A DNA stretch of 47,860 bases from a virus, in IMG/VR virus record IMGVR_UViG_3300044641_006593, positions 1 through 47,860 of that record. One strand, 5' to 3'. The position numbers and the translations under genes were made by a program. Shown here in pieces: positions 6,157 through 47,860 of the stretch (position 1 is its first letter; each line of letters begins with the position of its first letter). The notes under the pieces are model-generated. The model did not search any database, was not told the origin of the DNA, and worked only from the letters and a program-made list of their open reading frames with translations.

Positions 6157-9092
6157 TAGTTTCTATTGTCTATATAAATTATTACTTCACAATACCAATC
6201 CAAGAAATGGTCATTCCATAAATCCCATTTAATATCAACACCATCAACAGAAAAAACTTGATAGTTATTAAATTGTGGTAGTATATTATCTCTAAACCAT
6301 CTGAACTTACAGTTATGAAAATTCTCATTAACCCTCATATGGAATTCAGTTACAATTTTTGGTATGGTTTTTAAAAACTCAATATTACTTGGTTGAAATA
6401 CATCGTATTCCCCTCCCTCACAATCACATTTTAAGAAATCAATATGGTTTATATTATTTTCCTCTAAGAACTCTTTAAATGTAAATGTTGGTACATTTTC
6501 AGAAACATCGTCCCAAGTGATTGTTAGATGTTTTTTATCTGTAATTGCACCTCTAATAATTTTTACATTAGGTTTATTAAGATTTTTTTTGATAACCTCA
6601 ACTTGAGAATTTAGGGGTTCAACAACATAACACTGTTTTGGGTTATTAGGGAGAATTGAATATGTGAACGGACCTAAAGACCCCCCTAAGTCTACAACAA
6701 CATCATTTTCCTCAACCGTAAAAAATCTATCGTACATATTACCATAACCCATTTCTTCAATTGTTGCGTCAACATACCAATTATCTTTTCCACCCCAATC
6801 AAATCCTTCTAATTTATTTTTTCTTTCTTCAACCACTTCTTTATTTATTATTTTATTTATTTCTTTTACTACCATATCGGAGCTTATTCTTTTGGTACAC
6901 TCAAACATTCTGTCTGTATTTTTATGTAACGGACACCAGTTCCAATCACCCGCATCTAATCTTTCTGAATTAAAACATCCATGACAAACATTTTCGTTAA
7001 TAACTCTGTAAGTATCTAAAGTTGTTTCCGCCCATTTTTCACTAAACCCTGAGATTAAAACCACAGGTAATTCACAAGCCCAAGCCAACCAACTTAATCC
7101 TGAACCTAAACCTATAAAAAACTCACATGTAGATAAATCATTAATCACTTCTTGTAAGTTTCCACCTTTATAGATTGTTACGCCTTTTGGGTAATTATTA
7201 CCCATGTAACCATCACCTTCTCTTGAGTATATCATACACTCATACCCCAAATTATTTAAATAATCTACAACTTCTTGCCATCCATTCGGGTTGTTCCAAT
7301 ACTTTGATTGTGCCGTGGAATGAAATCCTATACCAACCTTTTTTCTTTTTTCAACTTTTGGTAGATTAAGGTTTGGTCTGATTTCAATATAATCTAACCC
7401 CAATATATCTGTTGCTGTTTTTTGAAGTGGCTGTCTTCGAATATCATTTTTATGTACATTTGAATTGAAGGTCCCATCTTCATTATAGAACCAACCTAAT
7501 CTATATTGTGCATAGATGTTATTAACTGAATCACCAGGTTTTACAAATTCTATTTCGGAATACTGATCAACAAATAGCTCATTCATAAATGTTGATGCAA
7601 TCAAATGGCAATTATGTTTTTTTCTGAACTCTTCGCAATAAGGGATCCAAGCCATTGTGTCACCCAAAGATTTGGACCCAAATGAAATATAAACTCTTCT
7701 ATTTTTTAAACTCAAAATATCAAAATAAAATGTTTCACCATTTTCTTTTATTTCGGTTCTCCATTCTGTGAAATATTCACGATTTAATTTTACCCAATGT
7801 TTTATTGGTAATTTGTTTGTGTACACCAACTCATTATTTTGATTATCATAAACCGATATTTCCATGTCATTTGTTGAATCACCTAAAATTTCAATGTATG
7901 GATTTACAACAAAATGTTGGTTAACCGTATAATCATTTTTTATTGGTTGATTCCCCATATGTGGTGTGTTTTTAACTTCAGTATAAAATGACATTAACTC
8001 ATCACCAAAATCATAACCACTTTCAATTTTATAAGAACTTTCTGAATTAATGACTGAAACTAATTTTTCGGAAATACTTTCAAATGTGTCTTCATTTGCA
8101 ATACTAGTAATGTAGTTATCAAACATTCCCATGTATTGTGGTAAATTTCTTGTTAAAATTTTCATTCCATAGTTGACCGCTTCTCTTACTACAAGTGGAT
8201 TACATTCCCATGTCGAATTAAACATGAGAACATCACAAGACATCATAAATGAGTCCACATCATTTCTTTCTCCCCAAACTGTAACATTTTTGGGTAAATT
8301 ATTCATGATAGGACCCCAATAGTTTTCGAAGTTAGGTGCTTGATTTCCAACAAAATGGAAATGTAAGTTTGGGTGTGAATCCTGTAAAAGTCTTGCCACC
8401 TCAATACCCTCTTTTTGATTTTTACCTTCCGTCCAAAGACCAACATTTAAAATATGTGTCTTCGTTGGGTCGATTCCCAAATTAGTTCTTTCGGTCATTT
8501 TTTTTAATAGTGGAATTCTGTGATCTTCATAATATATTTCAAGTTCCTCTAAAATTGGTTTTACTTTATCTTCGTATGGGAACATTAAAAGTTTTTTTGG
8601 TGATATCGTTTGATTAAACGATACTTTTTCATGATACGGCGTAACTAAACAATAATAATCAGGATGTAGTTTCTTTTTGTTATTTGCATCAAACCAAACA
8701 TTGTGACATGTCTCAACAATTTTCCAAGTTCTAAAATTATCATAAAGTTTATTCAAAAGATCTATAGGTATCCTATTAAAACTTTCGAACGCCTCAGGTA
8801 TCTCTTCTGCGTGAACAATATCAATATTTCTATCTTTTATGATTTTTATTAAATCATACTTTTTTTGTGTATCTGTAGTATCACCTAAACTATAAAAGTT
8901 GTGTTGACCAATTAGATTTATGATTTTGTTTCTTTGTACAACATATGTGTCACTAAATTGTGAATATTCAACAACTACTATTTCAATTTTATCTGAATGT
9001 TTTTTAAGAGACTCGATTCTTTTGAGTACAAACTGTGGCATCCCTCCTGTTGAAAGGTGGGGAGTTAAATAAAGAAGTGTAATTTTTTCCAT
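6156..9092 (-). CDS. Three-domain fusion: GT4 + TibC-like heptosyltransferase + FkbM methyltransferase
   Basis: Residues 1-375 form a GT-B glycosyltransferase (TPHLSTGGMPQF at the start; LNVGLWTEGKNQKEG near 215; the donor-site region FNSTWECNPLVVREA near 291). Residues ~390-750 match the autotransporter O-heptosyltransferase (Aah/TibC) family, with SFGSKSLGDTMAWIPY, GLGSGLSWLAWACELP and four cysteines (703, 706, 720, 732) in the place where TibC binds iron. Residues ~775-978 are an FkbM-type SAM methyltransferase (VVVDLGGSLGPFTY, FLKCDCEGGEYDVF). TibC-type enzymes glycosylate surface proteins, so a protein acceptor such as a fibre is plausible. The gene diverges from the GT9 gene across 52 bp. 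An assembly join cannot be excluded, but the frame and domain edges are clean. Confidence 0.85.
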   Translation of the reverse strand: MEKITLLYLTPHLSTGGMPQFVLKRIESLKKHSDKIEIVVVEYSQFSDTYVVQRNKIINLIGQHNFYSLGDTTDTQKKYDLIKIIKDRNIDIVHAEEIPEAFESFNRIPIDLLNKLYDNFRTWKIVETCHNVWFDANNKKKLHPDYYCLVTPYHEKVSFNQTISPKKLLMFPYEDKVKPILEELEIYYEDHRIPLLKKMTERTNLGIDPTKTHILNVGLWTEGKNQKEGIEVARLLQDSHPNLHFHFVGNQAPNFENYWGPIMNNLPKNVTVWGERNDVDSFMMSCDVLMFNSTWECNPLVVREAVNYGMKILTRNLPQYMGMFDNYITSIANEDTFESISEKLVSVINSESSYKIESGYDFGDELMSFYTEVKNTPHMGNQPIKNDYTVNQHFVVNPYIEILGDSTNDMEISVYDNQNNELVYTNKLPIKHWVKLNREYFTEWRTEIKENGETFYFDILSLKNRRVYISFGSKSLGDTMAWIPYCEEFRKKHNCHLIASTFMNELFVDQYSEIEFVKPGDSVNNIYAQYRLGWFYNEDGTFNSNVHKNDIRRQPLQKTATDILGLDYIEIRPNLNLPKVEKRKKVGIGFHSTAQSKYWNNPNGWQEVVDYLNNLGYECMIYSREGDGYMGNNYPKGVTIYKGGNLQEVINDLSTCEFFIGLGSGLSWLAWACELPVVLISGFSEKWAETTLDTYRVINENVCHGCFNSERLDAGDWNWCPLHKNTDRMFECTKRISSDMVVKEINKIINKEVVEERKNKLEGFDWGGKDNWYVDATIEEMGYGNMYDRFFTVEENDVVVDLGGSLGPFTYSILPNNPKQCYVVEPLNSQVEVIKKNLNKPNVKIIRGAITDKKHLTITWDDVSENVPTFTFKEFLEENNINHIDFLKCDCEGGEYDVFQPSNIEFLKTIPKIVTEFHMRVNENFHNCKFRWFRDNILPQFNNYQVFSVDGVDIKWDLWNDHFLDWYCEVIIYIDNRN

Positions 9093-12836: not shown

Positions 12837-12863
12837 AAAATTAATTTTTTTGAAAAAGTGATA

Positions 12864-12870
12864 TATTTAT
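12864..12870 (+). promoter_or_regulatory. TATTTAT element upstream of tagged protein 1
   Basis: TATATTTATAT context, ending 41 nt before the ATG at 12912. Confidence 0.3.
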
Positions 12871-12911
12871 ATGGTAAAGATAATAAAATTAACTTAGAAT
12901 AAAAAAAAATT

Positions 12912-13385
12912 ATGAAAAAAATTGTTAGACTAACTGAATCCGATTTAGTTAATATCGTAAAAAGAGTAATCGAGGAACAAACTACACCAGCTGTTATTGA
13001 TGCTGGATATAGTCGTGATATGCAAGATTACGCTATTGTACTTTCTCAACCAACTATCGCTGGTGGTTCAGGTTACAAGGGAACAGTGACTGCTCAGGTT
13101 AAATTCAACGGAGTTAGAATCAAAGATAATGGATCTCCTGTAACAAAAGGAAACATTGTTCTTTATGCCGCATGTGGTCCTAGCGCCAATCCAGGGGCAT
13201 TAAGTCCAAGAAGTTCTGCGGATGTTTTCGAAGGTGGTAGTACTTATGTTTTTGGAAGAGGTAGTGTAGTAGATAAAATGGTTAGAAATTTTTGTCAATC
13301 TAAAGGTCAACCTAGTTCACCAACTGCAGGAAATGCTGTAAATTACATTGGAGATGCTAAAAAAGCATTATCAATGTCAAAATAA
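12912..13385 (+). CDS. Putative capsid-targeted internal protein (tag type 1)
   Basis: The 157-residue protein starts with an amphipathic segment, MKKIVRLTESDLVNIVKRV, followed by IEEQ. This segment is 17/21 identical to that of the 14573 gene, although the rest of the two proteins is unrelated. It ends at I20-E21-E22, the (I/L)-x-E pattern cut by T4 gp21-type proteases, so it may be a removable capsid-targeting sequence. The body (from about 27) has no recognised family. The gene ends in a strong bidirectional hairpin shared with the converging secreted-protein gene. Confidence 0.75.
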   Translation: MKKIVRLTESDLVNIVKRVIEEQTTPAVIDAGYSRDMQDYAIVLSQPTIAGGSGYKGTVTAQVKFNGVRIKDNGSPVTKGNIVLYAACGPSANPGALSPRSSADVFEGGSTYVFGRGSVVDKMVRNFCQSKGQPSSPTAGNAVNYIGDAKKALSMSK

Positions 13386-13404
13386 TTAAAAAACTAATTG
13401 AACA

Positions 13405-13432
13405 AAAAACCCTCCGAAAAGAGGGTTTTTTT
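13405..13432. terminator. Bidirectional intrinsic terminator
   Basis: Stem aaaaaCCCTC / GAGGGttttt with a 6-nt loop (cgaaaa), flanked by A and T runs, between two converging genes. Confidence 0.9.
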
Positions 13433-13445
13433 GTTTTGGGTAATA

Positions 13446-13889
13446 TTACATATTTACTACTGCCGCGTAAGTACGGTTATTATCTTTGAAGACTACAATC
13501 AAATCTTTGTTTGTTGATTTCATTTTATTAATTACAAAAGTCATCGTACCAAAATCTTCAGTCACAACATCAAATTTTGTAAAGTATGTCTCATCTTCCA
13601 AATTTGTAATCTTGTATACCACTTCTTTACGGTCTTTTGATCCCGATTCCAAAGTAATATAATTGTGGGTCAATGTTTTTTTATCTAAGTTGATCTCGTA
13701 AAGATTAAATCCATCTGATTGTAGAACTTGACCCACAGTCTTACCCTTTAAAAGATCCTCAGGATTGATATTTTTATTTGTAATGTCAAAATAATCAAAA
13801 CCACCCAAAGTATGGAAGTTCAAATTTGCTTGAGAGAAAACAGTAATTGTTGAGAATAATGCGAAAACTAAGGTCAATAAATTTTTCAT
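13446..13889 (-). CDS. Secreted small protein with signal peptide
   Basis: I choose the internal ATG at 13889 rather than the longer frame from 13955. It begins MKNLLTLVFALFSTITVFSQ, a typical flavobacterial signal peptide with probable cleavage after SQ. A host-type promoter (13927-13956) overlaps the longer frame's first codons. The mature ~127 residues are beta-rich and contain INPEDLLKGK. The 14974 gene has a comparable signal peptide followed by ISPKDLLLD, so the two may be distant relatives. Export by a lytic-type phage gene suggests a role in the host envelope or periplasm. I do not recognise the family. Confidence 0.75.
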   Translation of the reverse strand: MKNLLTLVFALFSTITVFSQANLNFHTLGGFDYFDITNKNINPEDLLKGKTVGQVLQSDGFNLYEINLDKKTLTHNYITLESGSKDRKEVVYKITNLEDETYFTKFDVVTEDFGTMTFVINKMKSTNKDLIVVFKDNNRTYAAVVNM

Positions 13890-13926
13890 GTTATTTGGTT
13901 TAAAGGGTTTATGAATGATTACACTA

Positions 13927-13956
13927 CAAAGATAAGACCTTTTTTTGATTTGCAAA
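13927..13956 (-). promoter_or_regulatory. Bacteroidetes-type promoter for the secreted protein gene
   Basis: On the minus strand, TTTG, an 18-nt spacer and TATCTTTG (consensus TTTG-N17-23-TAnnTTTG). The -7 element ends 37 nt upstream of the ATG at 13889. Confidence 0.8.
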
Positions 13957-13977
13957 ACACTTTTAAAAATATTTTAA

Positions 13978-14010
13978 AAAAAATATCCCACCATAATTAA
14001 ATGATGGGAT
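13978..14010 (-). terminator. Intrinsic terminator of the tmRNA
   Basis: On the minus strand, ATCCCATCAT / ATGGTGGGAT (one G-U pair) with a 6-nt loop, followed by a T run, 4 nt after the encoded CCA of the tmRNA. Confidence 0.9.
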
Positions 14011-14014
14011 TAAT

Positions 14015-14432
14015 TGGTGGACCTAGAGGGCTCCGACTCCCTCGTCCGGCTCGTCTTGTCTAAGAGACAACTACATGTTTAGGATAAGGTTTTTCATACC
14101 TTCCAAAATATTTGGTTCCTATTTTAACATCGTTACCAAAAACTGTGTCGAGTTCACTTTTGTTACGGTAGACCTCTGAACGAGACCGTTTGTTTCTTTT
14201 TGGGTAGAAACCACACCTTAAGGATTTCTGTTGCTAGGTTATGTATCCACCGACCCCCCGTTTCCGTACTTAAATTAAGCTACAGTAACTTCTTGAGTTG
14301 AGATAAGTCCCAAAGTCTCAAGGTTGTTTAGCACATTGCCAGTTGTTGTTCGAATCAGTTTTTAACGAGATTAATTCAGTCCCGACATGCTTCTTTTATT
14401 CAACCAACGCCCGTCAAATCCAATATAGGCCC
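14015..14432 (-). ncRNA. ssrA: Transfer-messenger RNA (tmRNA)
   Basis: The 5' end GGGCCTA pairs perfectly (one G-U) with TAGGTCC at the 3' end, followed by ACCA, giving a 7-bp acceptor stem with encoded CCA. TATTGGATTTGACGGGC follows the 5' strand, matching the tmRNA D-region signature (GGATTCGAC). A pseudoknot (CGGGA/TCTCG with GAAT/ATTC) lies just upstream of the tag frame. The resume codon is probably GGC at 14340, by alignment with Bacteroidetes tmRNAs, opening a 21-codon tag that ends EVTVA and TAA at 14275. The 3' half ends in a GAGGG/CCCTC T-stem. It frees stalled ribosomes and tags nascent chains. It has its own host-type promoter and terminator. The T-loop (AGTCGGAG) lacks the usual TTC. 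Confidence 0.93.
14275..14340 (-). other. tmRNA proteolysis-tag reading frame
   Basis: Twenty-one sense codons plus TAA. The encoded tag begins GNVLNNLETL and ends STQEVTVA. Usual Bacteroidetes tags are about 9-10 residues ending ALAA. The GGC resume codon follows the predicted pseudoknot by about 10 nt, and a CTTAA/TTAAG pairing surrounds the stop, as helix 5 does in other tmRNAs. Confidence 0.65.
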
Positions 14433-14468
14433 ATATATCTTAATTGACTACTTCAAAGAATAATAATA

Positions 14469-14500
14469 CAAATATAAATATTATATCCTAAAAAATCAAA
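14469..14500 (-). promoter_or_regulatory. Bacteroidetes-type promoter of the tmRNA
   Basis: On the minus strand, TTTG (14500-14497), a 20-nt spacer and TATATTTG (14476-14469). Transcription should start near 14462, leaving a ~30-nt leader for RNase P to remove. Confidence 0.85.
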
Positions 14501-14572
14501 TTAATTAATTTTTTTACTTAAAACAATATACTTATAGAATATAGTAAATAAAATTATATTAAAATATTAATT

Positions 14573-14926
14573 ATGAGTAAAATTGTAAGATTAACTGAAA
14601 GTGACTTGAAAAGAATCGTATCCAGAGTAATCAACGAACAAGAAGTGATGGATTGGGCGCAATATTCTGTAGCTGCGGAAAAAAATAGAAAAGGAATGCG
14701 TATTGCTAATACTGGAAACAATGGTGCCGACGGAGTCGGGTTTGATTTAAAACAGTGGAGTCAAGATTTAGGATGGATAAATGATAGAAGTGGAAAAGAT
14801 TATACTTATTCATGTAAAACTGGTCAGATAGTGGATGAAAGTAATCAACCTATTTCTTCCATGGTGGTTTCTCAACTAACTTTAAATCACCCTAATTGGA
14901 AGGGGACCCTTAAATCCGATTGTTAA
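14573..14926 (+). CDS. Putative capsid-targeted internal protein (tag type 2)
   Basis: The 117-residue protein starts with KIVRLTESDLKRIVSRV followed by INEQ, nearly the same tag as the 12912 gene. Different synonymous codons are used, so the peptide rather than the DNA is conserved. Predicted cleavage is after I20-N21-E22. The mature part (~95 residues) has GNNGADGVGFDL, WINDRSGKDYTYSCKTG and a C-terminal Cys, and I recognise no family. It ends in a strong bidirectional terminator. It is the nearest plus-strand gene to the tmRNA, which is transcribed away from it. Confidence 0.75.
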   Translation: MSKIVRLTESDLKRIVSRVINEQEVMDWAQYSVAAEKNRKGMRIANTGNNGADGVGFDLKQWSQDLGWINDRSGKDYTYSCKTGQIVDESNQPISSMVVSQLTLNHPNWKGTLKSDC

Positions 14927-15458: not shown

Positions 15459-15490
15459 ATATTTTTTTTTAATATATGTTGTTAATAATA

Positions 15491-15501
15491 TATTTATTTA
15501 T
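15491..15501 (+). promoter_or_regulatory. Overlapping TATTTAT elements upstream of the 382-residue protein
   Basis: Two overlapping copies (15491-15497 and 15495-15501) end 6 and 2 nt before the ATG at 15504. Confidence 0.4.
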
Positions 15502-15503
15502 AT

Positions 15504-16652
15504 ATGCGAAAAATATTAGATATTTTTGAACAAGACGAAGATGAGATAGAATTAACCGACTACGAAAAAATTCTTGCTTTAAATAAAAGAAAGATTGACC
15601 CATATGAAACTGATTTTGATGGGTGTGATGGTACTGATTATTCAGACTATTATGAAGTAGGTTATGATGGTATAACTTTCACTTTCCATGATGGATTAGA
15701 AGAATACCTAAGATTTTTTTTCAAAGAAACTTATGGTGATGAAGGTTCAGATGCTTGGTATGAAGCGGGATATCTTGATTCTATGCGTAGAGGTCAATGG
15801 GAATGGGATACTTGGGATAGAGCAAGTGAAGATTGGAATGATGGGTATATAATTGAATCAATAAACGGTGATCCATTAAAACTTTTATATGAGATATTAA
15901 AAAAATATCAACCACACTTATTAAATTCTTTTGAGGTTATTGATAATCACGTTAAGTGGAAAGATGGTAAAGAAACGGATAAAATATGTGATTTTATTGA
16001 ATCTGTAAGTAGCAGAACAAAGGATGATTTAATAGAGGCTTATGCATATGCAAATGATAGAGCAACGGATGCGGAAGTGCCAAGATATATTGATGAAATA
16101 TATTGTAATTCTTTATCTGTTATTGGTATTGAAAATCAATCAAAAAATTGTTATTGGAAATATTTTTTAAGTTGGGGTGACGCCATTATGTTATTTGTAA
16201 GATACGGAACTCCCGAAGATTGTTTGCTGGATATAATGTTTAAAGCAATAGAAAAAGAAGTTACAAACCACGCTTCAGAATATTATGAAATTCAATACGA
16301 AGCTTGGAACAGAGATGTATTTTACGAAGAATTTAATAAAAGAAGTATTAGAGATTTAGAAAGTTTAATGGAAGAGTTAGACGATATGGTTCAAGAGGGT
16401 GGAGAAGAAAAAATGAAAAAATATTTTCAAATTTTAAACACACTAAATGAAAAAATAGGATTTAATCGTAGTAAAAAAATTCCAGGAGGATATGAAATTA
16501 GAATATTTGATGTTGATAGTGACACTTTAATGGTTAATTATGGTTTACGTAAAGGAAACACATGGGGAGAACCATTTAAAAAAGGGTCCGCCCCATTACG
16601 TCGTATCTTGGATATGTTGGAAACTCCACCGATTGTTCCTTATATTGATTAA
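15504..16652 (+). CDS. Large acidic protein, unknown; possible internal protein
   Basis: The 382-residue protein is strongly acidic and rich in Tyr, Trp and Asp (GDEGSDAWYEAGYLDS, WEWDTWDRASEDWNDGY). Its start, MRKILDIFEQDEDE, holds an I-x-E site at residues 7-9 followed by Gln, like the other proposed capsid tags, though shorter and less certain. A coiled segment lies near 285-330, and the C-terminus resembles a small folded domain (GGYEIRIFDVDSDTLMVNYG). No family is recognised. It converges with the peptidase gene, with a 4-bp stop overlap. Confidence 0.75.
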   Translation: MRKILDIFEQDEDEIELTDYEKILALNKRKIDPYETDFDGCDGTDYSDYYEVGYDGITFTFHDGLEEYLRFFFKETYGDEGSDAWYEAGYLDSMRRGQWEWDTWDRASEDWNDGYIIESINGDPLKLLYEILKKYQPHLLNSFEVIDNHVKWKDGKETDKICDFIESVSSRTKDDLIEAYAYANDRATDAEVPRYIDEIYCNSLSVIGIENQSKNCYWKYFLSWGDAIMLFVRYGTPEDCLLDIMFKAIEKEVTNHASEYYEIQYEAWNRDVFYEEFNKRSIRDLESLMEELDDMVQEGGEEKMKKYFQILNTLNEKIGFNRSKKIPGGYEIRIFDVDSDTLMVNYGLRKGNTWGEPFKKGSAPLRRILDMLETPPIVPYID

Positions 16653-22747: not shown

Positions 22748-23163
22748 ATTTGATTTATGTAAATGAGCTAGGACCTAATTACAAAGGTGATAACATTTAC
22801 GAATTTATATTTTCGGATATTAATGATGTGTGGGGTGAAGATTGGGATGCAACACCATCAGGTGGAAAACCACTCCCCCCTCAAATAGAATTTATAAAAA
22901 AGGTTGGGGTTTTAAGAAACTCAGAAATAGAATTAGAACTGATACAACAGTCTGATTATTTTGGAGTATATGATGCAGTAGATGGTGTTATTGGGTTAGC
23001 TTGGGAAAAATCTGATTCTGACTCAGTTACATTCAACAAGTATAAAAGATTAGTTTTTCACTTTGGTGAAACAGACGAATCTGTAGAAAACAAACTTTAC
23101 GAAAGAGATGTCGTATTAAAATGGGAAAAAAATTTAGTCAAAGATGAAACACATGAATCCTAA
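22744..23163 (+). CDS. Conserved head-cluster protein, unknown
   Basis: The 139-residue acidic protein (LGPNYKGDNIYEFIFSD, VWGEDWDATPSGGKPLPP) has no membrane segment or signal peptide. It overlaps genes on both sides by 4 and 20 bp, so it is translated in the terminase operon. It looks like a soluble assembly or regulatory protein. No family name is recognised. Confidence 0.75.
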   Translation: MNLIYVNELGPNYKGDNIYEFIFSDINDVWGEDWDATPSGGKPLPPQIEFIKKVGVLRNSEIELELIQQSDYFGVYDAVDGVIGLAWEKSDSDSVTFNKYKRLVFHFGETDESVENKLYERDVVLKWEKNLVKDETHES

Positions 23164-23662
23164 ATTAGTTAAACTTTTACATGAAGGTTTTTCTATGAAT
23201 ACATTAGAAAAACTAAACGAAAACCAGTTAAATGTTCTTTTTAAAAGAATAAATGAGCAAAAAGGTAAGGTAACAGTTTCTTCAGATAAGTTGGGGACTG
23301 TCGATCTTAAAAAAATGACAGACTCAGGTGTTGATGTTGAGGTTAAAGAAGAGGAGACTGAAGTAAAGGAGAAGTCAGTTTCCCAACAACAACAAAAAAT
23401 AATGGGATTGGCACTTTCAGTGAAAAAAGGAGATACTGCAAAATCTAAAGTTTCTAAAGAAGTAAAGAAAATGGCTAAAGACATGACTTACAAAGAATTA
23501 GAAGACTTTGCATCGACTAAAAGAAAAGGGTTACCCAAGAAAAAAGAAACGGACGAAGAAGTTAAAAATCTTGAAGAGGGTATTCTTAGAATATTACAAA
23601 ATCATTTACCTCCACATACCACAAAAGGTGAACTTCTCGATGTAATTCGTAGAAGAAATTAA
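23144..23662 (+). CDS. Small basic/acidic protein upstream of terminase; possible terminase small subunit position
   Basis: The 172-residue, lysine- and glutamate-rich protein may start at 23144 or at the second ATG at 23153. The first ~40 residues are helical and reach RINEQ, an I-x-E motif like the proposed capsid tags. The C-terminus (LEEGILRILQNHLPPHTTKGELLDVIRRRN, from ~143) is a compact helical domain. It directly precedes the terminase large subunit, where T4-like phages often encode gp16. Sequence similarity to gp16 is not evident, so this is only a positional suggestion. Confidence 0.65.
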   Translation: MKHMNPKLVKLLHEGFSMNTLEKLNENQLNVLFKRINEQKGKVTVSSDKLGTVDLKKMTDSGVDVEVKEEETEVKEKSVSQQQQKIMGLALSVKKGDTAKSKVSKEVKKMAKDMTYKELEDFASTKRKGLPKKKETDEEVKNLEEGILRILQNHLPPHTTKGELLDVIRRRN

Positions 23663-25481: not shown

Positions 25482-27302
25482 ATGTCAGAACAAAAATTAA
25501 CGGTGTGGCAAAGATTGAGTAGGACTTTTGGTCCTAATGCAACCCTTGACCAACAATCTCCCGTATTCAAATTTGATAAAAAGGAGCTATTAAAGACAAC
25601 AGATAAATCTGAGTTTGAAAAAGAAAAATTACAATCTCAGCAGACAATGTATATCGGCCAACAATGGCAAAAAGTAGAAAATAATTTATACCAACAAGCG
25701 GTATATTATGAACCAACAAGAATGGCGTCATACTATGATTATGAATCTATGGAATATACACCTGAAATTTCTGCGGCATTAGACATTTATTCTGAAGAAT
25801 CCACAACACCAGATCAAGATGGACTTATATTAAAAGTTTATTCTGAATCAAAAAGAATAAAATCAGTATTAATCGATCTTTTTGTTAATAAATTGGATAT
25901 TAACACCAACTTACCAATGTGGACAAGAAACACATGTAAGTTTGGTGACAACTTTGTATATCTTAAGTTAGATCCTGAAAATGGTATTGTTGGATGTCAA
26001 CAACTACCAAACATTCAAATCGAAAGATTAGAAAAAGGGATGAGGTTTCAACCTGATAAGTACTCACAAGAAATGGAAAACGACGCTTTGAAGTTTACTT
26101 GGAAGGAAAAAAACATGGAGTTCAATACTTGGGAAGTAGCACACTTTAGAATTTTAGGTGACGATAGAAAACTACCGTATGGTACATCGATGCTCGAAAA
26201 GGCTCGTAGAATTTGGAAACAATTATTACTTTCTGAAGATGCGATGTTAATCTATCGTGTATCTAGAGCACCTGAAAGAAGAGTATTTAAAGTATTTGTC
26301 GGTAACATGGACGACAAAGATGTTGACCCATATGTACAAAGAGTTGCTAATAAATTTAAAAGAGATCAAATTGTTGATCACTCAACAGGTAATGTCGATA
26401 TGAGGTATAATCAAATGGCGGTAGACCAAGATTATTTCATTCCTGTTCGTGATCCGGCAGCAACCAACCCTATTGAAACATTACCAGGTGGTACGAACTT
26501 AGCTGAAATCGCAGACATTGAGTATATTCAAAAGAAATTAGTTACAGCTCTTAGAATACCTAAGGCTTATTTAGGATTCGAAGAGGCGGTAGGTGATGGT
26601 AAAAATTTATCATTATTAGATATTCGTTTTGCGAGAACTATCAATAGAATTCAAAAGTCTATGATTGCAGAATTAAATAAAATTGCAATTATTCATCTTT
26701 TTTTATTAGGTTTTGAAGACGAATTAACAAACTTCACATTAGGTTTACACAATCCATCTAAACAATCTGAATTACTTTCAATCGAACTATGGAAGGAAAA
26801 AATACTTCTGTATAAAGATGCAGTTACACCTATCGCAGACACAGTAGCCCCTGTTTCAGCGTCTTGGGCTAAAAAACATATCTTAGGGTTCTCAGATGAA
26901 GAAATAAGATTAGATATACAACAACAAAGGGTAGAAAGGGCAGTGGCTGCAGAACTTGTAAAAACTGCTGAGAGTATACCTAAAACCGGACTTTTTGATA
27001 CTATAGACCAACTTTACGGTAAAAAAGATGGTGAAGCAACACCTGAAGGAGGTGCGGCACCTGAAGGAGGTGATATGGATATGGGAGGTGGAGATTTAGG
27101 CGGAGGAGCCCCACCACCACCTGAAGGCTCACCATCACCTGAACCTGGAGGGGTAACACCTGAAAGTTTTAATAAAGATGGATTAGATTTAATATTGGAA
27201 GATTTGTCATTATTTAATTCTGCAGATGTTATAGAATTATCTAAAGGAAGAAACTCGTTGATTGAAATAGATGAAAGAGTTAAATCTTTATTGAATAAGT
27301 AA
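25482..27302 (+). CDS. Portal protein (T4 gp20-like)
   Basis: The 606-residue protein carries recognisable gp20 segments: YYDYESMEYTPEISAALDIY, KFGDNFVYLKLDPENG, SEDAMLIYRVSRAPERRVFK, QDYFIPVRDPA, ETLPGGTNLAEIADIEYIQK and RIPKAYLGF. It forms the dodecameric ring at the head vertex. The C-terminal 80 residues add a Gly/Pro/Glu low-complexity stretch (EGGAAPEGGDMDMGGGDLGG) ending in a helix. T4 gp20 (524 residues) lacks this tail, which may contact the similarly acidic scaffold. Confidence 0.95.
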   Translation: MSEQKLTVWQRLSRTFGPNATLDQQSPVFKFDKKELLKTTDKSEFEKEKLQSQQTMYIGQQWQKVENNLYQQAVYYEPTRMASYYDYESMEYTPEISAALDIYSEESTTPDQDGLILKVYSESKRIKSVLIDLFVNKLDINTNLPMWTRNTCKFGDNFVYLKLDPENGIVGCQQLPNIQIERLEKGMRFQPDKYSQEMENDALKFTWKEKNMEFNTWEVAHFRILGDDRKLPYGTSMLEKARRIWKQLLLSEDAMLIYRVSRAPERRVFKVFVGNMDDKDVDPYVQRVANKFKRDQIVDHSTGNVDMRYNQMAVDQDYFIPVRDPAATNPIETLPGGTNLAEIADIEYIQKKLVTALRIPKAYLGFEEAVGDGKNLSLLDIRFARTINRIQKSMIAELNKIAIIHLFLLGFEDELTNFTLGLHNPSKQSELLSIELWKEKILLYKDAVTPIADTVAPVSASWAKKHILGFSDEEIRLDIQQQRVERAVAAELVKTAESIPKTGLFDTIDQLYGKKDGEATPEGGAAPEGGDMDMGGGDLGGGAPPPPEGSPSPEPGGVTPESFNKDGLDLILEDLSLFNSADVIELSKGRNSLIEIDERVKSLLNK

Positions 27303-27321: not shown

Positions 27322-28053
27322 ATGAACACTTTTGGCACTATAAAAACAAAAATAGAAAAAGCATCTATCGGTTTATACGGAAAACCTGAATTTAAATCTT
27401 TTTTGAAACAATTTAAATCAATGGTTTTAGAAAACAAAGACATTGCTGAGTTATATTATATCTACGATGATTTATCTTCTAACAAGGGTATTAATGAATC
27501 TATCGCCGAAGATTACATAAATGAAACTGTTGAGTATTCTCAAATTTTAGTTGAAGGTAATTCAAAACATATTACAAAGGTAAGTAATTGGATTGATTCT
27601 ATTGTATTGGAACATACTAATGAATACAAGGATATTGATAATACGATATATAAGAAATCAATCAAAGACCTATCCACGGTTTTAGAATCTAAAAGAAAAA
27701 TTAAGTCTAATATTATTTTAGAAGAAAAGAAAGAAGATATAATAGAAAGCGTTAACTTACCAATTTCAACAATGGTTAAGGTTGCTGAAGAAAATATTAA
27801 ATTAGAATTAAAAAATATTTCAGAATCAGAAAGAAAAGTTATAGAGGAGTTGTCATCTATGTCGGATGAAGAAATCAAAACCGAAATGGACCAACTTAAA
27901 GAAAATGTTATTTCTAATTTGAAATCTACTTTGAACGAATCGACAGAATCTGATTTAAAATCAACAATAGAAAATACAATCAAAAAAATTAATGAATCAC
28001 CTTATGATAGATTCAATCTTTATAAGTTGAGGGGTTTAAGTCAAGGATTATGA
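27322..28053 (+). CDS. Helical prohead-core-like protein in the gp67/gp68 position
   Basis: The 243-residue protein is highly charged and mostly helical (EEKKEDIIESVNL, SESERKVIEELSSMSDEEIKTEM). It occupies the slot between portal and protease where T4 encodes the prohead core proteins gp67 and gp68. Several I-x-E sites (INESIAED, YINET, INESPYD near the C-terminus) would suit processing by the prohead protease. Sequence similarity to gp67/68 is not claimed. The stop overlaps the holin-like gene by 4 bp. Confidence 0.7.
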   Translation: MNTFGTIKTKIEKASIGLYGKPEFKSFLKQFKSMVLENKDIAELYYIYDDLSSNKGINESIAEDYINETVEYSQILVEGNSKHITKVSNWIDSIVLEHTNEYKDIDNTIYKKSIKDLSTVLESKRKIKSNIILEEKKEDIIESVNLPISTMVKVAEENIKLELKNISESERKVIEELSSMSDEEIKTEMDQLKENVISNLKSTLNESTESDLKSTIENTIKKINESPYDRFNLYKLRGLSQGL

Positions 28054-29049: not shown

Positions 29050-29757
29050 ATGAAAATTTTAGGACCGAATGATAGTGGTAAAGGAATACTTGTAGAATGG
29101 GATGCTGGATTCATCAATCCAAATGATGAGAGAAATACCGATATAATAAAAGAATCTTACGGACAGTTAGAACACTCAAAACCTTTTGTGTTCTATGCGA
29201 CATTACAAAAACACGGAGTACCTAACAGAAACGGTAGGGTTTATCCTGAAAACATATTAAGAAGAGAGGCTGATAAGTATAAAGAACTTATTAATAAAGG
29301 GATGTCGATTTCTGAATTAAACCATCCTGAGTCTTCATTAATTGACTTAGATAGAGTATCACATCTTATTACTGACATATGGTGGGAAAACAATGTTTTA
29401 ATGGGTAAGATTAAATTATTAACCACTCCAGGTTTTCACGAAAGAGGTATAGTGTCATCCAAAGGAGATGTTGCAGCAAACATGATGAGACAGGGTGTTA
29501 CTATGGGTGTATCTTCTCGTGGTGTTGGTTCTTTGGTAAAAAAAGGTGAGCAAAATGAAGTACAGGATGATTTTGAATTAATTTGTTTTGATCTTGTTTC
29601 TTCACCGTCAACGCCAGGAGCTTACCTTTACTTAAACAAGGAAGACCGACCAAAGTATGAAGAAAAACTTGCCGAACATGATAAAAGTAATTTTTCAGGT
29701 AGTGGTTTAGAGAAATCTGTTGACTTAATGAAAAGATTGACCGATTATTTAAAATAA
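29050..29757 (+). CDS. Prohead core protease (T4 gp21-like)
   Basis: The 235-residue serine protease has NRNGRVYPENIL (59-70), the His-bearing ELNHP (89-93, His92) and the Ser motif GVSSRG (153-158). These fit the U9/gp21 herpesvirus-type protease fold. In T4 this enzyme cleaves scaffold, capsid and internal proteins after (L/I)-x-E during maturation. Here the capsid, scaffold and several tagged proteins contain matching I/L-N-E sites. It lies upstream of the scaffold gene as in T4, with a 69-residue gene between them. Confidence 0.93.
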   Translation: MKILGPNDSGKGILVEWDAGFINPNDERNTDIIKESYGQLEHSKPFVFYATLQKHGVPNRNGRVYPENILRREADKYKELINKGMSISELNHPESSLIDLDRVSHLITDIWWENNVLMGKIKLLTTPGFHERGIVSSKGDVAANMMRQGVTMGVSSRGVGSLVKKGEQNEVQDDFELICFDLVSSPSTPGAYLYLNKEDRPKYEEKLAEHDKSNFSGSGLEKSVDLMKRLTDYLK

Positions 29758-30134: not shown

Positions 30135-31664
30135 ATGAGTACAGAAAAAACAGGATCGATAGTTGAACAAACCTTATTACAAATTAAGGCTGTTGAAAAT
30201 GCTATCAGTGAAAATGCAAAAGGAATACTTGCTTCTACAATGAAACAAGAAATCAGCGAATTAGTTAGAGAGTCTTTAGTAGATTCAAAACAAACAAAAA
30301 AACCCCTAAACGAACAAGAAGAGCCTGAAATGGAAGAACCTGTAGTTGCGACTGCAGATGACGAAGAAGAAGAGGCTGTAATTGATGTTGAAGACGAGGG
30401 GGGAGAACCTGAATCAGAATATGTCTTTGGTATGGATTCCGAAGATGGTGAAGAAGAAGGTGATAATGAAATGGAAATGCCTCCACTTGACATGACTTCG
30501 GCATCACCTGACGAAGTTTTGAAAGTTTTCAAAGCTATGGGTGATGAAGATGGAATTATAGTTAAGAAGGATGATGATTATATTCACTTGATCGATGATG
30601 AAGATGAGTATTTGATTCAAACTGGAGACATGGACGATAATACAGAAGAACCAATGTTGGATTTAGAAGAAAGTGTTATCTACGAAATTGAAATGGAAGA
30701 AGGTGATTATCACATGGAAGAACAAGAATTTGAAGAAGGTGATTATCACATGGAAGAACAAGAATTTGAAGAAGGTGATTATCACATGGAAGAAATGTAC
30801 ATGGAAGAAGGAGACTATATGGTTGACTTGGATAATGTACAATTCGGACAAGATGATTTTTCAAATGTTGAAGAAGAATCCATTTATGAAATCGATGAAG
30901 AAGATCTTCACTCAGTAGTAGAAGCATTTAAAGCAGTAGGAATGGGAATGGGTAAAGTAGGAACAGGAATGGCTAAAACTTCAGTTAATAACAAAGGGTT
31001 CAAAGAAGACCAACCACAAGGCACAAAAGGTGTTGGAATGGGTAAAGCAAGTAAATTTAAATATCCTAAAATTAAACATGGAGTTACTGAAACCGAAACT
31101 GAAGAGGCATTCGAAGGTTGGGATATGGAAGAAGATGTTGATTTGGTAGATATTGAAGCTACTGGAGGTATGATGGAACCTGAAACAACTGAAGCGTCAA
31201 GAACTATGACATATAGAAGAAGAGCTGAAAGAGACAGAGTGGCAGCACCAAGTCAGTTAAGAAAAGAATCTGTAGAAAGAGAACTTGATTTAATTAAAGA
31301 GAAAAACGAAGAATACAAAAAAGCTTTGAATTTCTTTAGATCTAAGTTAAATGAAGTTGCAGTATTCAATTCAAACTTGGCATATGCTACAAGATTGTTC
31401 ACTGAACATTCCACTACAAAACAAGAAAAAATAAATATTCTAAGAAGATTTGATAATGTAGAATCTATCAAGGAATCTAAAACACTTTACAAGTCAATTA
31501 AAAATGAATTAGATGGTAAAGGTGGTGAGATGGTAACTGAGTCAGTTCAGACAAAAGTTAATAGAACACCAGCTAACGGATCATCAACAAACTTAATTGA
31601 AAGTAAAACTTATGAGAATCCTCAATTCATGAGAATGAGAGATTTGATGTCAAAAATTAAATAA
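30135..31664 (+). CDS. Prohead scaffold protein (T4 gp22-like)
   Basis: I start at the ATG at 30135 (MSTEKTGSIVEQ) rather than the in-frame TTG at 30123. The 509-residue protein is extremely acidic from ~60 to 260, with 12-residue repeats (GDYHMEEQEFEE), then a Gly/Lys linker (~265-300). A long helical region from ~375 (ERELDLIKEKNEEYKKALNFF) is typical of scaffold cores. T4 gp22 is 269 residues, so this one is expanded. I/L-x-E sites (PLNEQ, NLIESK near the C-terminus) should be cut by the protease. It is followed directly by the capsid gene. Confidence 0.85.
   Translation: MSTEKTGSIVEQTLLQIKAVENAISENAKGILASTMKQEISELVRESLVDSKQTKKPLNEQEEPEMEEPVVATADDEEEEAVIDVEDEGGEPESEYVFGMDSEDGEEEGDNEMEMPPLDMTSASPDEVLKVFKAMGDEDGIIVKKDDDYIHLIDDEDEYLIQTGDMDDNTEEPMLDLEESVIYEIEMEEGDYHMEEQEFEEGDYHMEEQEFEEGDYHMEEMYMEEGDYMVDLDNVQFGQDDFSNVEEESIYEIDEEDLHSVVEAFKAVGMGMGKVGTGMAKTSVNNKGFKEDQPQGTKGVGMGKASKFKYPKIKHGVTETETEEAFEGWDMEEDVDLVDIEATGGMMEPETTEASRTMTYRRRAERDRVAAPSQLRKESVERELDLIKEKNEEYKKALNFFRSKLNEVAVFNSNLAYATRLFTEHSTTKQEKINILRRFDNVESIKESKTLYKSIKNELDGKGGEMVTESVQTKVNRTPANGSSTNLIESKTYENPQFMRMRDLMSKIK
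30702..30809 (+). repeat. 36-bp tandem repeat in the scaffold gene
   Basis: Two perfect 36-bp copies and a third partial copy encode GDYHMEEQEFEE; a related EEGDY follows. Confidence 0.9.
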
Positions 31665-31695: not shown

Positions 31696-33522
31696 ATGGG
31701 AGCATTATTAGAATCAGGTCTTGTTGGTAACATCGGGTTGAAACACCTTAAAGTTATCAAAGAAGATACAATTAACAAATGGGATAAATTAGGATTCCTA
31801 GATGGTCTTAAAGGACACATTAAAGAGAACATGGCTCAATTATATGAGAACCAAGCATCTCACCTTATTAACGAAGCGGCTTCAACTGATAGCTCAGGTT
31901 CATTCGAAACTGTAGTTTTCCCTATCGTAAGACGCGTATTCTCTAAATTGTTAGCTAATGATTTAGTATCTGTACAAGCAATGAACTTACCTATCGGTAA
32001 ATTGTTCTACTTTGTACCTAAAATCCAAGGTTACCAAGCGGCAGCTAATAACCAAATACAACACTTTCCACCACTTGGTTCACCCGCTACTTTAGTAGGT
32101 GATGCTACTGCAACTCAAGGACAAGGTTACGGATCAACTAGTACATACGGTGGTACTAACTTGTATGACTTATTCTATGAAGGAAATGAGCCAGGATTAG
32201 ATCCTGCAGGTTTATTTGACTATTCAAAAGGAGCTTATACGGCAATTACTTCAAGTGCTGTTGGCACTGTAGTTTGGAATGGTTACAATTTAGTGTCTTC
32301 TGGTTATTCAGCAGGTGAGTACAGAAAAGTATTAATCGGTTTATCAGGTTTCTCTAATGCGGGTGCTGGTAAATTAATTGGACCTGATGGTCAGGAAATG
32401 GATAATGAAGCATTCTTATCTGACTTACAAGTAAATGCTGTACAAGCGGGTGTTAATGGTTTCTCAGGTTTAGGTACTAGTGATATTCTTTTCAGAGTTG
32501 TTACTCAAAAATATGGTAAAGGTATTGTACAATATGGTACACAAGCAAATACAACTTGGTCATCTACAGGTAACGGAGGTTCTTATGATAACCTTTGTTC
32601 ACAAGATGGTATCATCTATTTAGAGTTGGATCTACAAGTTCCTGCAACTATCGGTACAGGTTCAATTGACGGATATTCAGGGTTCACTTTACCAATTACT
32701 GGTCTTGCCACTGCAGGAGCTGCGTTTACATGTACATTCAGAAGATACAAAGAATTGGAATTCGAAGATGAGATCGGTGAAGTATCTTTTGACCTTGAGT
32801 CAGTTACTGTATCTGTTACAGAAAGAAAACTAAGAGCACAATGGTCTCCTGAATTAGCTCAAGATGTATCTGCATTCCACAATATCGATGCTGAAGCTGA
32901 ATTAACAGCTTTATTATCTGAGCAAGTGGCGGCAGAAATTGATCGTGAAATTCTTCGTGATTTGAGAAAAGGCGCAGCTTGGACACTTCGTTGGGATTAC
33001 AACGGATGGAAAAGAGGTACTACTGCAAATCCATTAACTCAGTACACTCAAAAAGACTGGAACCAAACATTAATCACTGCGATTAACCAAATTTCGGCAC
33101 AAATCCACAAATCTACTTTGAGAGGTGGAGCTAACTGGATCGTAGTTTCTTCTGAAATTTCAGCTATTTTTGATGACTTAGAATACTTCCATGTATCTAA
33201 CGCTTCACCGGAGCAAGATCAATACAACATGGGTATTGAAAGAGTTGGTACATTAGCTGGTCGTTACCAAGTTTACCGTGATCCTTACTTCCCACCAAAC
33301 ACAGTATTGTTGGGTCACAAAGGAACATCATTGTTAGACACTGGTTATGTTTACGCACCGTATGTACCTCTACAATTAACACCTACAATGTATAACCCAT
33401 TCAACTTTACACCAATCAAAGGTATCATGACAAGATACGCTAAGAAAATGGTTAACAACCGTTTCTATGGTAGAATCACAGTTGATGGAGTTAGAACATT
33501 TGACTTAAGAGAATTGAGATAA
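31696..33522 (+). CDS. Major capsid protein (T4 gp23-like)
   Basis: The 608-residue protein has the gp23 layout. An N-terminal helical pro-region ends ENQASHLINEAAS, the counterpart of the T4 FLTE|AEIGG site, so cleavage is expected after Glu60. IVRRVFSKLLANDLVSVQAMNLPIGKLF then parallels the gp23 core. The C-terminal half has WSPELAQDVSAFHNIDAEAELTALLSEQ and the final RYAKKMVNNRFYGRITVD segment. At 608 residues it is longer than T4 gp23 (521), with an inserted Gly/Thr/Ser-rich region (~110-330) that probably projects from the capsid. A strong terminator follows. Confidence 0.95.
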   Translation: MGALLESGLVGNIGLKHLKVIKEDTINKWDKLGFLDGLKGHIKENMAQLYENQASHLINEAASTDSSGSFETVVFPIVRRVFSKLLANDLVSVQAMNLPIGKLFYFVPKIQGYQAAANNQIQHFPPLGSPATLVGDATATQGQGYGSTSTYGGTNLYDLFYEGNEPGLDPAGLFDYSKGAYTAITSSAVGTVVWNGYNLVSSGYSAGEYRKVLIGLSGFSNAGAGKLIGPDGQEMDNEAFLSDLQVNAVQAGVNGFSGLGTSDILFRVVTQKYGKGIVQYGTQANTTWSSTGNGGSYDNLCSQDGIIYLELDLQVPATIGTGSIDGYSGFTLPITGLATAGAAFTCTFRRYKELEFEDEIGEVSFDLESVTVSVTERKLRAQWSPELAQDVSAFHNIDAEAELTALLSEQVAAEIDREILRDLRKGAAWTLRWDYNGWKRGTTANPLTQYTQKDWNQTLITAINQISAQIHKSTLRGGANWIVVSSEISAIFDDLEYFHVSNASPEQDQYNMGIERVGTLAGRYQVYRDPYFPPNTVLLGHKGTSLLDTGYVYAPYVPLQLTPTMYNPFNFTPIKGIMTRYAKKMVNNRFYGRITVDGVRTFDLRELR

Positions 33523-33571: not shown

Positions 33572-33581
33572 ATTTTAAAGA

Positions 33582-33588
33582 TATTTAT
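33582..33588 (+). promoter_or_regulatory. TATTTAT element after the capsid terminator
   Basis: Ends exactly 4 nt before the ATG at 33593, directly behind a terminator. Confidence 0.5.
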
Positions 33589-33592: not shown

Positions 33593-34318
33593 ATGAACCA
33601 ACAAGAAAAGTTTTTTTTATTAAACGAAGTTACCTCAACAAATACAGGGTCAAGAGGAAGTTATGTCGGTCGTTTACAATCAGGAATTAGATATTTTAAA
33701 AAGAAAGATTTAGGTCCGTTTACCGAAAATGTTTCGGACTATAAAAGTCCTGATTTAGAATATGATTCATATGATGGAAAAATGGAAAGAAGTAAAAAAC
33801 AAATAGGTAAGAAAGAAAAAATTGCAAAAAAAATCTATAACTATATTAAAAATAACCCCCAATCAACTTTTAGTGATACCGAAGGTAACCCAATAAATCG
33901 GTTTCCTGGAAAAAATACAAATATAGTACCGATTAAAGAATGGGTGGAATTAGATAAAATTAATTTAAATGAAGATTTGGCGGTTTGGTTTGGAACAAAG
34001 AAAAAACCTAAAGGATCAAAACAACCAAAAGGACCATGGGTTAACATATGTAGAAAAGTAGATGGTAAACACCCACCATGTGGAAGACCTGACACATCTA
34101 AAGGTGCTTATCCTAAGTGTAGGGCAGCTGGTGTTGCTGGTAAAATGAGTGATTCGGCTAAAAAGGCCGCTTGCCAACAAAAAAGAAAGGCCGAGAAAAA
34201 AGACACCCAAACAGGTAAAGGTCAAAAACCAATTATGACATCATACAAACCAAAAAACAAAAGGACCCAAAATGAGTCCTTAGAAAAAATTATTAAAAAT
34301 ATTTTAAGTTCACTTTAA
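33593..34318 (+). CDS. Lys/Cys-rich protein; putative internal virion protein
   Basis: The 241-residue protein starts MNQQEKFFLLNEV, a short segment ending in L10-N11-E12, the proposed capsid-tag pattern. The C-terminal third is strongly basic with a Cys-rich core (WVNICRKVDGKHPPCGRPD, YPKCRAAGVAGKM, AACQQKRKAEKK). I recall this motif as recurrent in T4-like phages of marine bacteria, where its function is unknown. A basic protein of this kind could bind packaged DNA. It ends with SLEKIIKNILSSL, an amphipathic helix. Its stop overlaps that of the converging 34315 gene. Confidence 0.75.
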   Translation: MNQQEKFFLLNEVTSTNTGSRGSYVGRLQSGIRYFKKKDLGPFTENVSDYKSPDLEYDSYDGKMERSKKQIGKKEKIAKKIYNYIKNNPQSTFSDTEGNPINRFPGKNTNIVPIKEWVELDKINLNEDLAVWFGTKKKPKGSKQPKGPWVNICRKVDGKHPPCGRPDTSKGAYPKCRAAGVAGKMSDSAKKAACQQKRKAEKKDTQTGKGQKPIMTSYKPKNKRTQNESLEKIIKNILSSL

Positions 34319-34782
34319 CAATAAGTTCCTGAACATCTTTTTTGACCATCAAGTCCTTTTATTTTTCCTTTACATACTTGTATTGCGTACCCATTGGCAT
34401 AAGCTGAAGGATACACATCATATTTTGCTTTAGCTGCCGACTTACCTCTTGCACAAAGTTTAGTCCCTGTTTTTTTTCTACCCTCAATCATCATCATATC
34501 CTCGTCATCGATATTCATAGAAAGTTCCATACCATCTTTTTTTGATTCATTCATCAAAAAATCAAAAACTTGATCCATGTTGTTTTTAGCCTCTGCGATA
34601 TGATCTTGGGCCCAATCGTGACCATTTTCTAAAATACTCTCCACCATGTTTGGGTCTAAATCTAACAATAGATCACATTGTCTTCTCATCTGTTGTAAAT
34701 TAGAAAAAAACATGTATCTTGAATTGTTCATTCTATGATCTTCATTTAATACTTTTCTTATTATTCTTTCTATGTTGCCCAT
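34315..34782 (-). CDS. Tagged protein with Lys/Cys-rich C-terminus; putative internal protein
   Basis: The 155-residue protein starts MGNIERIIRKVLNEDHRMN, a short amphipathic helix ending in L12-N13-E14, a third variant of the proposed capsid tag. The middle is helical and acidic. The C-terminus (KTGTKLCARGKSAAKAK, YPSAYANGYAIQVCKGKIKG) carries the YPSAYAN/Cys/Lys motif seen in phage proteins of unknown function. It is the last gene of the long minus-strand block and sits 2 bp after the 492-residue gene. It shares its motif type with its convergent neighbour. Confidence 0.75.
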   Translation of the reverse strand: MGNIERIIRKVLNEDHRMNNSRYMFFSNLQQMRRQCDLLLDLDPNMVESILENGHDWAQDHIAEAKNNMDQVFDFLMNESKKDGMELSMNIDDEDMMMIEGRKKTGTKLCARGKSAAKAKYDVYPSAYANGYAIQVCKGKIKGLDGQKRCSGTYC

Positions 34783-41965: not shown

Positions 41966-41967
41966 AA

Positions 41968-43032: not shown

Positions 43033-43035
43033 GTT

Positions 43036-43344
43036 TTATAAATGTTTTATTATTTTATTCATTAATAATGTATTAAATGCAAATTTAAATGGTAAAGATA
43101 AATTTTTAGCACTATGAATACCTAAATTCTCATCCATTTCCTCTCTTTCAGTCAAAACGACCTCAATTAAAAATTTGAATGTGTCGTATCTTGTAACACT
43201 TATTTGTTGTTCAGGTTCCTCTGATTTTTCTTCAGTCTCTTTTTTACCTTTTTTAGGTAAAGGTATTTTGGATTTAGTCATACTAACTTGATGTTCTAAT
43301 TCATCAATGTCTATATAGTATTTTTCTCCTAAAAAATCTAACAT
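43036..43344 (-). CDS. Small conserved protein, unknown
   Basis: The 102-residue protein (MLDFLGEKYYIDIDELEHQVSM, KGKKETEEKSEEPEQQ, FKLI/VLTEREEMDENLG-type helices) has a charged central linker. It overlaps the HAD-like gene by 7 bp and is spaced 3 bp from the next gene, so it is part of the same transcript. No family is recognised. Confidence 0.7.
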   Translation of the reverse strand: MLDFLGEKYYIDIDELEHQVSMTKSKIPLPKKGKKETEEKSEEPEQQISVTRYDTFKFLIEVVLTEREEMDENLGIHSAKNLSLPFKFAFNTLLMNKIIKHL

Positions 43345-44715: not shown

Positions 44716-44722
44716 TTATTTA

Positions 44723-46850: not shown

Positions 46851-46856
46851 AATGTC

Positions 46857-47783: not shown

Positions 47784-47860
47784 TTTTTGTTTTTTATTAA
47801 GTTTATATATCAATACCGTTAAAATATGTATTGAAGTTATTTTCCCATATTCTTGGTATG

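Follow-up and report, generated by a model that had tools for sequence, protein, structure and literature searches.

A shared N-terminal tag on unrelated proteins of a T4-like phage lineage resembles a capsid-targeting propeptide

We analyzed a 47,860-nucleotide stretch of viral DNA (IMG/VR record IMGVR_UViG_3300044641_006593, positions 1 to 47,860; the window, hereafter), in which two genes encode proteins that begin with nearly the same peptide and share nothing after it. This common N terminus, referred to here as the tag, is very probably a capsid-targeting propeptide with gp21-type processing. The best reading of our results is that it is a lineage-specific propeptide that works like the capsid-targeting sequence (CTS) of phage T4, although its sequence is unrelated and its cargo families are far more numerous. 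The first tagged protein (157 amino acids; 12912..13385, plus strand) starts with the 22-residue tag MKKIVRLTESDLVNIVKRVIEE (12912..12977), and the second (117 amino acids; 14573..14926, plus strand) starts with the 22-residue tag MSKIVRLTESDLKRIVSRVINE (14573..14638); cleavage is predicted after Glu22 in both. As the preliminary description of this DNA had claimed, 17 of the 21 residues from 3 to 23 are identical. The whole proteins align at 2e-09 owing to the N terminus, while their bodies minus the tag show no similarity to each other (E = 25). The preliminary description had also claimed that both tags end in I-x-E followed by Gln, and we indeed found Glu22 and then Gln23 in both proteins, with the underlying DNA repeat (12901-12980 and 14562-14641, 73% identity) stopping at the Gln23 codon. 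The second copy of the tag within the same record was detected at E = 1.2e-5. Neither body had a Pfam or PHROG match. The body family of the 12912 protein had two further members (L240/L011 and L052), both tagged, and no untagged homologue of either body was found among the loci examined, a search that reaches close relatives only.

The tag was found to be widespread in viral contigs. One degenerate pattern, in which residues 2-10 were partly fixed (Arg as AGA, Leu as TTR), gave at least 119 stretches and at least 138 matches (142 rows minus 4 from the window's own loci), compared with 1 match for the reversed pattern, and a chance origin was rejected on these counts. Among the matches listed, 137 of 138 were N-terminal (at most 10 residues from a Met), and exactly three residues preceded the Ile in 128; the sole remaining match, L033, has no Met within ten residues. 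The 133 tagged proteins of at least 60 residues among them fell into 95 body clusters by single-linkage BLASTP at 1e-4, a procedure that leaves remote homology between clusters possible. A profile made from 43 tags had matches in 51 records, between 1 and 15 in each (N-terminal position checked for part of them), the maximum of 15 being reached in two records of 292 and 401 kb. When the same pattern was applied to 84,980 bacterial and archaeal genomes, it found 3 stretches, two of which were N-terminal tags on Prevotellaceae metagenome-assembled genome (MAG) contigs and one an internal chance match; a bacterial origin of the tag was rejected on this result. No match appeared by tblastn in 50,697 phage records, T4 included, at E up to 10, and no cultured phage carrying this tag was found. 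The string LTESDL did not occur in a literature text search (figures and subscription papers not covered), and searches by title and abstract opening found no paper describing such a tag.

We aligned 126 distinct tags and numbered them from the residue before the Ile; positions 11-20 had been left free by the search pattern, whereas conservation at residues 2-10 is partly imposed by it. The consensus of the free positions was [TAV]-R-[IL]-V-[KR]-R-V-I-x-E, with the Glu (Glu20 in this numbering) in 90% and the P3 Ile in 83% of the tags, and conservation fell flat straight after the Glu. An [ILVMT]-x-E end was seen in 125 of the 126, the lone exception being cut by a contig end, although two of the 125 ends, at offsets 11 and 17, may be due to chance. 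Control windows taken from the bodies of the same proteins contained [ILVMT]xE at any offset in 57/338 and at the exact offset in 8/338. Eight tags with a helix four residues longer, that is, by about one turn, still ended in [VIL]xE. The helix is amphipathic, with a moment of 0.69 versus 0.31 for shuffled tags. Synonymous entropy at most of the free positions was close to that of the bodies, indicating that the constraint is on the peptide. The earlier claim of peptide-level selection, which had been made from the two window genes, is thus upheld across the tags; in those two genes, 5 of the 18 identical residues (Met included) use different synonymous codons, counted by eye.

The ends of the tags are close to L/I-x-E, the site of T4 gp21, and a protease of the gp21 type is encoded in the same phage. 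Over 47,649 bases, the window matches the beginning of a 166,385-base contig (G013) at 99.996% identity, indicating that it is a fragment of a larger phage genome, and it contains a T4-type head module with a portal, a gp21-type protease, a scaffold-like protein, and a Gp23 capsid protein, all on the plus strand. The portal protein is encoded at 25482..27302 (Portal_T4, E 5.1e-77), the prohead protease at 29050..29757 (Peptidase_S77, E 7.4e-22, 78.2 bits versus the curated Pfam cut-off of 27; phrog_207 head maturation protease, 1.3e-42), and the major capsid protein at 31696..33522 (Gp23 family, E 1.3e-71). Of 50 tag contigs, 28 carried the S77 protease, including 14 of the 16 contigs of at least 150 kb. 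Among 29 contigs selected with an unrelated pattern, it was found in only one; these controls were not matched in length, with 10 of the 29 reaching at least 53 kb, and 0/10 of these were positive. Gp23 was over the cut-off in 26 of the 50 tag contigs, all of which also had S77; in the two S77-positive contigs without Gp23, the protease gene sits near a contig end, and one S77-negative contig (G025) had a weak partial Gp23 match below the cut-off. Tag-bearing phages without a gp21-type protease had been named by the preliminary description as evidence against its proposal. Here, 22 of the 50 contigs lacked S77, but a T4-type portal was found in 0/22 of them (positive controls, 8/8), which indicates that the whole head module is missing from these contigs; none of the 50 combined the tag and a head module with absence of the protease.

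Junctions like that of the tag were observed in the head-module proteins themselves. The capsid protein has a predicted propeptide of 60 residues ending in LINE|A (31696..31875, plus strand), compared with 65 residues reported for its T4 counterpart (PMC9026906). At this place, which corresponds to the gp23 cut of T4, [IV]xE|[AT] (LINE|A or a near variant) was found in 29/29 readable distinct sequences, rumen-type contigs having LIYE|A. The gene downstream of the major capsid gene (33593..34318, plus strand) encodes a protein with the putative short propeptide MNQQEKFFLLNE (33593..33628); in its family, many members start like MNRLNQIIRKVIRE|AT, and [ILV]xE was present in 63/63 readable sequences, followed by Ala in 46. 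A conserved head-module protein (34315..34782, minus strand; phrog_27331, unknown function) carries the 14-residue short tag MGNIERIIRKVLNE (34741..34782, minus strand), and Glu was at P1 in 62/63 members of its family. Out of at least 598 orthologs of this protein, 80 were kept for reading: 11 had a long tag in its place, such as MKRVIRLNETDITNLVKKVLNE|Q, whereas the rest of those that could be read had a short one, such as MRNLDSIIRKVIRE|T. All 79 readable ends were [ILV]xE, counted by eye, and in an alignment of 14 of the 80, the only invariant residue before residue 22 was Glu14. Since these orthologs swap long and short tags while keeping the Glu, the long and short addresses are interchangeable. 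A 38-residue N-terminal propeptide ending in RINE|Q is also predicted at 23144..23257 (plus strand), where orthologs had [IV]xE|Q in 6/6 distinct sequences, and a possible short propeptide, MRKILDIFE, at 15504..15530 (plus strand), where I-F-E was kept in 7/8 distinct ortholog sequences. The shorter variants proposed earlier, namely FFLLNE at 33593, IIRKVLNE at 34782, and ILDIFE at 15504, are present. However, the 33593 and 34782 proteins belong to conserved families beside the major capsid gene and thus resemble invariable parts of the head that begin with a short propeptide more than variable effectors, and 15504 is the weakest member of the set. In the larger contig, the genes at 77519, 148311, 154151, and 159539 also have short N-terminal segments ending in [ILV]xE (YLNRIVSE, IVNKVLSE, ILKDLIVE, and IIKKLLKE), and the 154151 gene contains a leucine-rich-repeat region.

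Two further proteins of the module are candidates for the prohead core. The one in the gp67/gp68 position between portal and protease (27322..28053, plus strand), whose role would follow from this position, has more [ILV]xE for its length than the product of any other of the 167 genes called in the larger contig, with 18 sites in 243 residues against a shuffled mean of 7.9 (0/2000 shuffles as high); this is the expected look of a core protein shredded by a gp21-type protease. The scaffold-like protein (30135..31664, plus strand), presumed to be such from its place between the protease and capsid genes, has an N-terminal segment with LxE|Q-type sites.

Many of the tagged genes also have an upstream element in common. 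The octamer ATATTTAT, a candidate promoter element, lies at 12863..12870 (plus strand), 49 bases before the start of the first tagged gene, and again at 15490-15497 and 33581-33588; it was absent within 100 bases before 14573. Within 80 bases upstream of tagged genes, it was found on the coding strand in 54/93 and on the other strand in 1/93, whereas other genes of the same loci had it in 178/841 on the coding strand and in 60 on the other (p = 4.6e-13; 2.6e-9 with AT-rich upstream regions only). It was the most strand-biased octamer without prior choice. In the larger contig, it precedes 21 of 167 genes, including those of the S77 protease, the scaffold-like protein, and the 33593 protein, as well as a helicase-like gene named by eye; in a post hoc comparison, 6/9 tag or propeptide genes had it, compared with 15/158 others. 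We infer that ATATTTAT is a promoter element of this phage lineage, perhaps a late one. The octamer is similar to the T4 late -10 box as it reads on the opposite strand; the T4 late promoter sequence TATAAATA itself was rejected as a candidate, being found on the coding strand for 9/93 tagged genes and on the other strand for 40. Same-codon share was 0.76 for 11 pairs of tags from the same locus versus 0.55 for 4454 pairs from different loci, a difference consistent with a promoter-plus-tag cassette being duplicated or recombined locally, with shared codon bias contributing. It is possible that the spread of such a cassette by recombination is the way in which new cargo is recruited.

Few of the tagged bodies matched a known domain. 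When the 95 cluster representatives were compared with Pfam, PHROGs, PADLOC, and NCBIfam, the clear matches were PG_binding_1 (3), LysM (1), and DUF6576 (1), the remaining representatives having weak or no matches. The tagged peptidoglycan-binding or LysM bodies are at L071:621-1664, L017:3040-3387, L066:5283-5645, and L104:710-1054. No family named as an effector was matched in the Pfam and NCBIfam tallies. Some weak matches to defense-system models were obtained, the best to LeoBC (7.3e-6, two members); these are leads only.

Taken together, the N-terminal place, the unrelated bodies, the [IL]-x-E end, the S77 protease, and the like junctions fit the capsid-targeting idea of the preliminary description; the correction concerns the 33593 and 34782 proteins, which seem to be constant rather than variable. 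Directly visible in the sequence are the tag and its modular spread, selection on the peptide, the conserved [IL]-x-E terminus, the S77 protease gene of this phage, and the like junctions, and from them the following course of events may be proposed. Late in infection, tagged proteins would attach to the prohead core through their amphipathic helix (about residues 9-21), the docking partner probably being the scaffold-like protein at 30135-31664. Cleavage after the conserved Glu22 ([IL]-x-E|) by the S77 protease (29050-29757) would follow and free the body inside the maturing head. The freed body would be packaged along with the DNA and might leave the head with it on ejection. The short version of about 9-15 residues would play the same role for conserved head proteins.

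Several observations weigh against this proposal. The tag has no sequence homology to T4 propeptides, both by tblastn and by eye for internal protein (IP) I, although this lowers the case for a homologue of the T4 CTS and not for a peptide that works like one. At P1', the capsid protein has Ala or Thr, whereas most tags have Gln, Asn, Ser, Glu, or Asp. The bare motif [ILVFMY][ILVF]xE was not clearly enriched at N termini genome-wide, with 15 and 18 occurrences per 1670 positions in the first two ten-residue blocks and 9-16 in the next six. The scaffold-like protein had no excess of [ILV]xE (17 versus 14.8 when shuffled), and the ELVKESLxE|Q junction of its orthologs was read by eye only from an alignment gapped at P3 in 18/27 rows. 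The AlphaFold models were poor, with a predicted local distance difference test (pLDDT) of 57.7 for the 12912 protein (three sequences) and 46.2 for the 34782 protein (14 sequences). Both of these low-confidence models place a helix in the tag, and the 12912 model had no fold match in the PDB and BFVD at E up to 0.001. The peptidoglycan-binding and LysM bodies are no obvious head cargo. Finally, the docking partner, encapsidation, cleavage, ejection, and action in the host are all deduced here from sequence alone.

What the cargo does is the point on which two readings compete most closely. We lean toward the view that many long-tagged proteins are ejected and active in the host, given how diverse the bodies are and what is known of T4, and the "ejected effectors" of the preliminary description may be called a good guess. 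Alternatively, with the same propeptide, the cargo could be passive or structural, consisting of core fillers, DNA condensers, or neck or peptidoglycan-contacting parts; we regard this as the less likely of the two, but as a serious candidate. It would account for the conserved short-tagged 33593 and 34782 proteins beside the capsid gene and for the peptidoglycan-binding and LysM bodies in a set where no effector-named family was matched, and mutants of T4 IPIII are reported to affect head assembly (PMC9026906). However, the high diversity of the long-tagged bodies (95 clusters among 133 of the matches listed) is more readily explained by an arms race than by a structural role, the T4 IPs are described as a diverse defense set in which the CTS alone is conserved (PMC3012670), and the defense-system leads, weak as they are, point the same way.

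The remaining alternatives deny the propeptide itself. The peptide might be a targeting or oligomerization helix for a membrane, a replication site, or the tail, with the Glu as a helix end instead of a cleavage site. Such a role would suit a strongly amphipathic, basic segment ending in a three-residue motif so short that bare copies occur throughout proteins, but we consider it unlikely: the Glu is kept when the helix grows by four residues and when the whole peptide is swapped in the 34782 orthologs, and the capsid protein has the same junction at the gp23 cut place. Still less probable, and in our view close to negligible, is that the similarity merely reflects a translated nucleic-acid element, such as a promoter, a translation enhancer, or a recombination site. 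The frequent upstream ATATTTAT and the closer codons of same-locus tags speak for such an element, but variation at synonymous positions is about the same as in the bodies, and both the reading frame and the start position are kept; as the sole cause, a nucleic-acid element was rejected by the codon test.

If the tag is a propeptide, a broader picture may be drawn, which we put forward tentatively. A widespread lineage of T4-like and jumbo phages (contigs up to 412 kb) may use one exportable address on a very large, fast-changing stock of small proteins. These would number up to about 15 in a genome and, in all, probably several hundred families, which could be the largest head-packaged, host-injected effector set known, with promoter-plus-tag cassettes as the means of recruitment; variable injected cargo would bear the long tag and constant head proteins the short one. 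The proteins that tailed phages inject with their DNA are known for few model phages because the virion proteins of uncultured phages cannot be measured, and if the above is true, the injectome of an uncultured phage would become readable from sequence alone. With a sequence tag for head cargo, many hypothetical proteins encoded by phages from the environment and the rumen would become members of a defined class open to testing, that of probable host-takeover or anti-defense proteins of the first minutes. Such a tag could also serve as a delivery signal in phages that do not infect enterobacteria, and the conserved junction would amount to a sequence-level prediction of prohead protease sites in this lineage.

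As for the phage and its surroundings, the nearest capsid proteins include those of Flavobacterium phages, at about 42% identity, with a Microcystis phage equally near. The host is presumably a member of the Bacteroidota, judging from the two MAG contigs, the similarity to Flavobacterium phage capsids, and signal-peptide-like open reading frames (ORFs) recognized by eye. A transfer-messenger RNA (tmRNA) lies between the two tagged genes (14015-14432, minus strand; Rfam RF00023, 71.5 bits, gathering 47), with the whole model covered and the CCA end encoded, although ARAGORN made no call. An ORF at 2-370, truncated by the left edge of the window, has a collagen-like Gly-x-x repeat and is likely to encode a fiber protein. 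Glycosyltransferase-like and nucleotide-sugar ORFs, identified by eye, are numerous at 2001-9092 and 41153-47813, flanking the head module.

The closest known parallel is the T4 CTS. T4 is described as having three IPs and Alt, and propeptides of 10-19 residues target the IPs to the core and are removed by gp21 after L/I-x-E (PMC9026906). The CTS of IPIII is reported to suffice for bringing a foreign protein into the head (PMC7697877, PMC9026906), and the CTS has been suggested as a possible route of various proteins into T4-like phage capsids (PMC9026906). The N terminus of IPI is MKTFKEFTSTTTPVSTITE|A, the cut being placed from its 95-residue length and 76-residue mature protein (PMC3012670). 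Like the tag, the CTS of IPI, IPII, IPIII, and the Alt propeptide is N-terminal, sits on unrelated small proteins, and ends in L/I-x-E for gp21, in a phage with gp20, gp21, and gp23, of which the phage analyzed here has homologues. It differs in length (7-19 residues, compared with 22 for the long form of the tag, which also has short forms) and in number, with up to 15 profile matches per record here against the three IPs and Alt of T4. The giant phages SPN3US and phiKZ have internal head proteins reported to be cut after glutamate by a gp21 relative, as proposed for the tag, but the SPN3US motif is given as A-x-E, and most of its propeptides are far longer (PMC5694885). In P1, an N-terminal signal of DarB takes this anti-restriction protein and a reporter into the head, a likeness limited by the single protein described and the larger N-terminal part needed (PMC9024508). 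The Flavobacterium phage immuto (an isolate, MW353175) is T4-like, has a gp21-type protease annotation, and, as we found by an all-against-all comparison of N termini, encodes unrelated proteins with shared N termini that differ in sequence from the tag. They form three families (loci L183-L185 and L391), namely MENFDLKKFLVEN..., MKKQILSEQF[KR]RMQ.LAGIITE, and MKKS[QE]L..., with genes at 1803, 103806, 117631, and 118632; at 25061 and 111675; and at 102294, 102880, 113188, and 123355. Two of the families have clear [IL]xE-type ends, FLVE|N and IITE|S. Since immuto has shared N termini of its own in the same style, lineage-specific addresses may be general among such phages.

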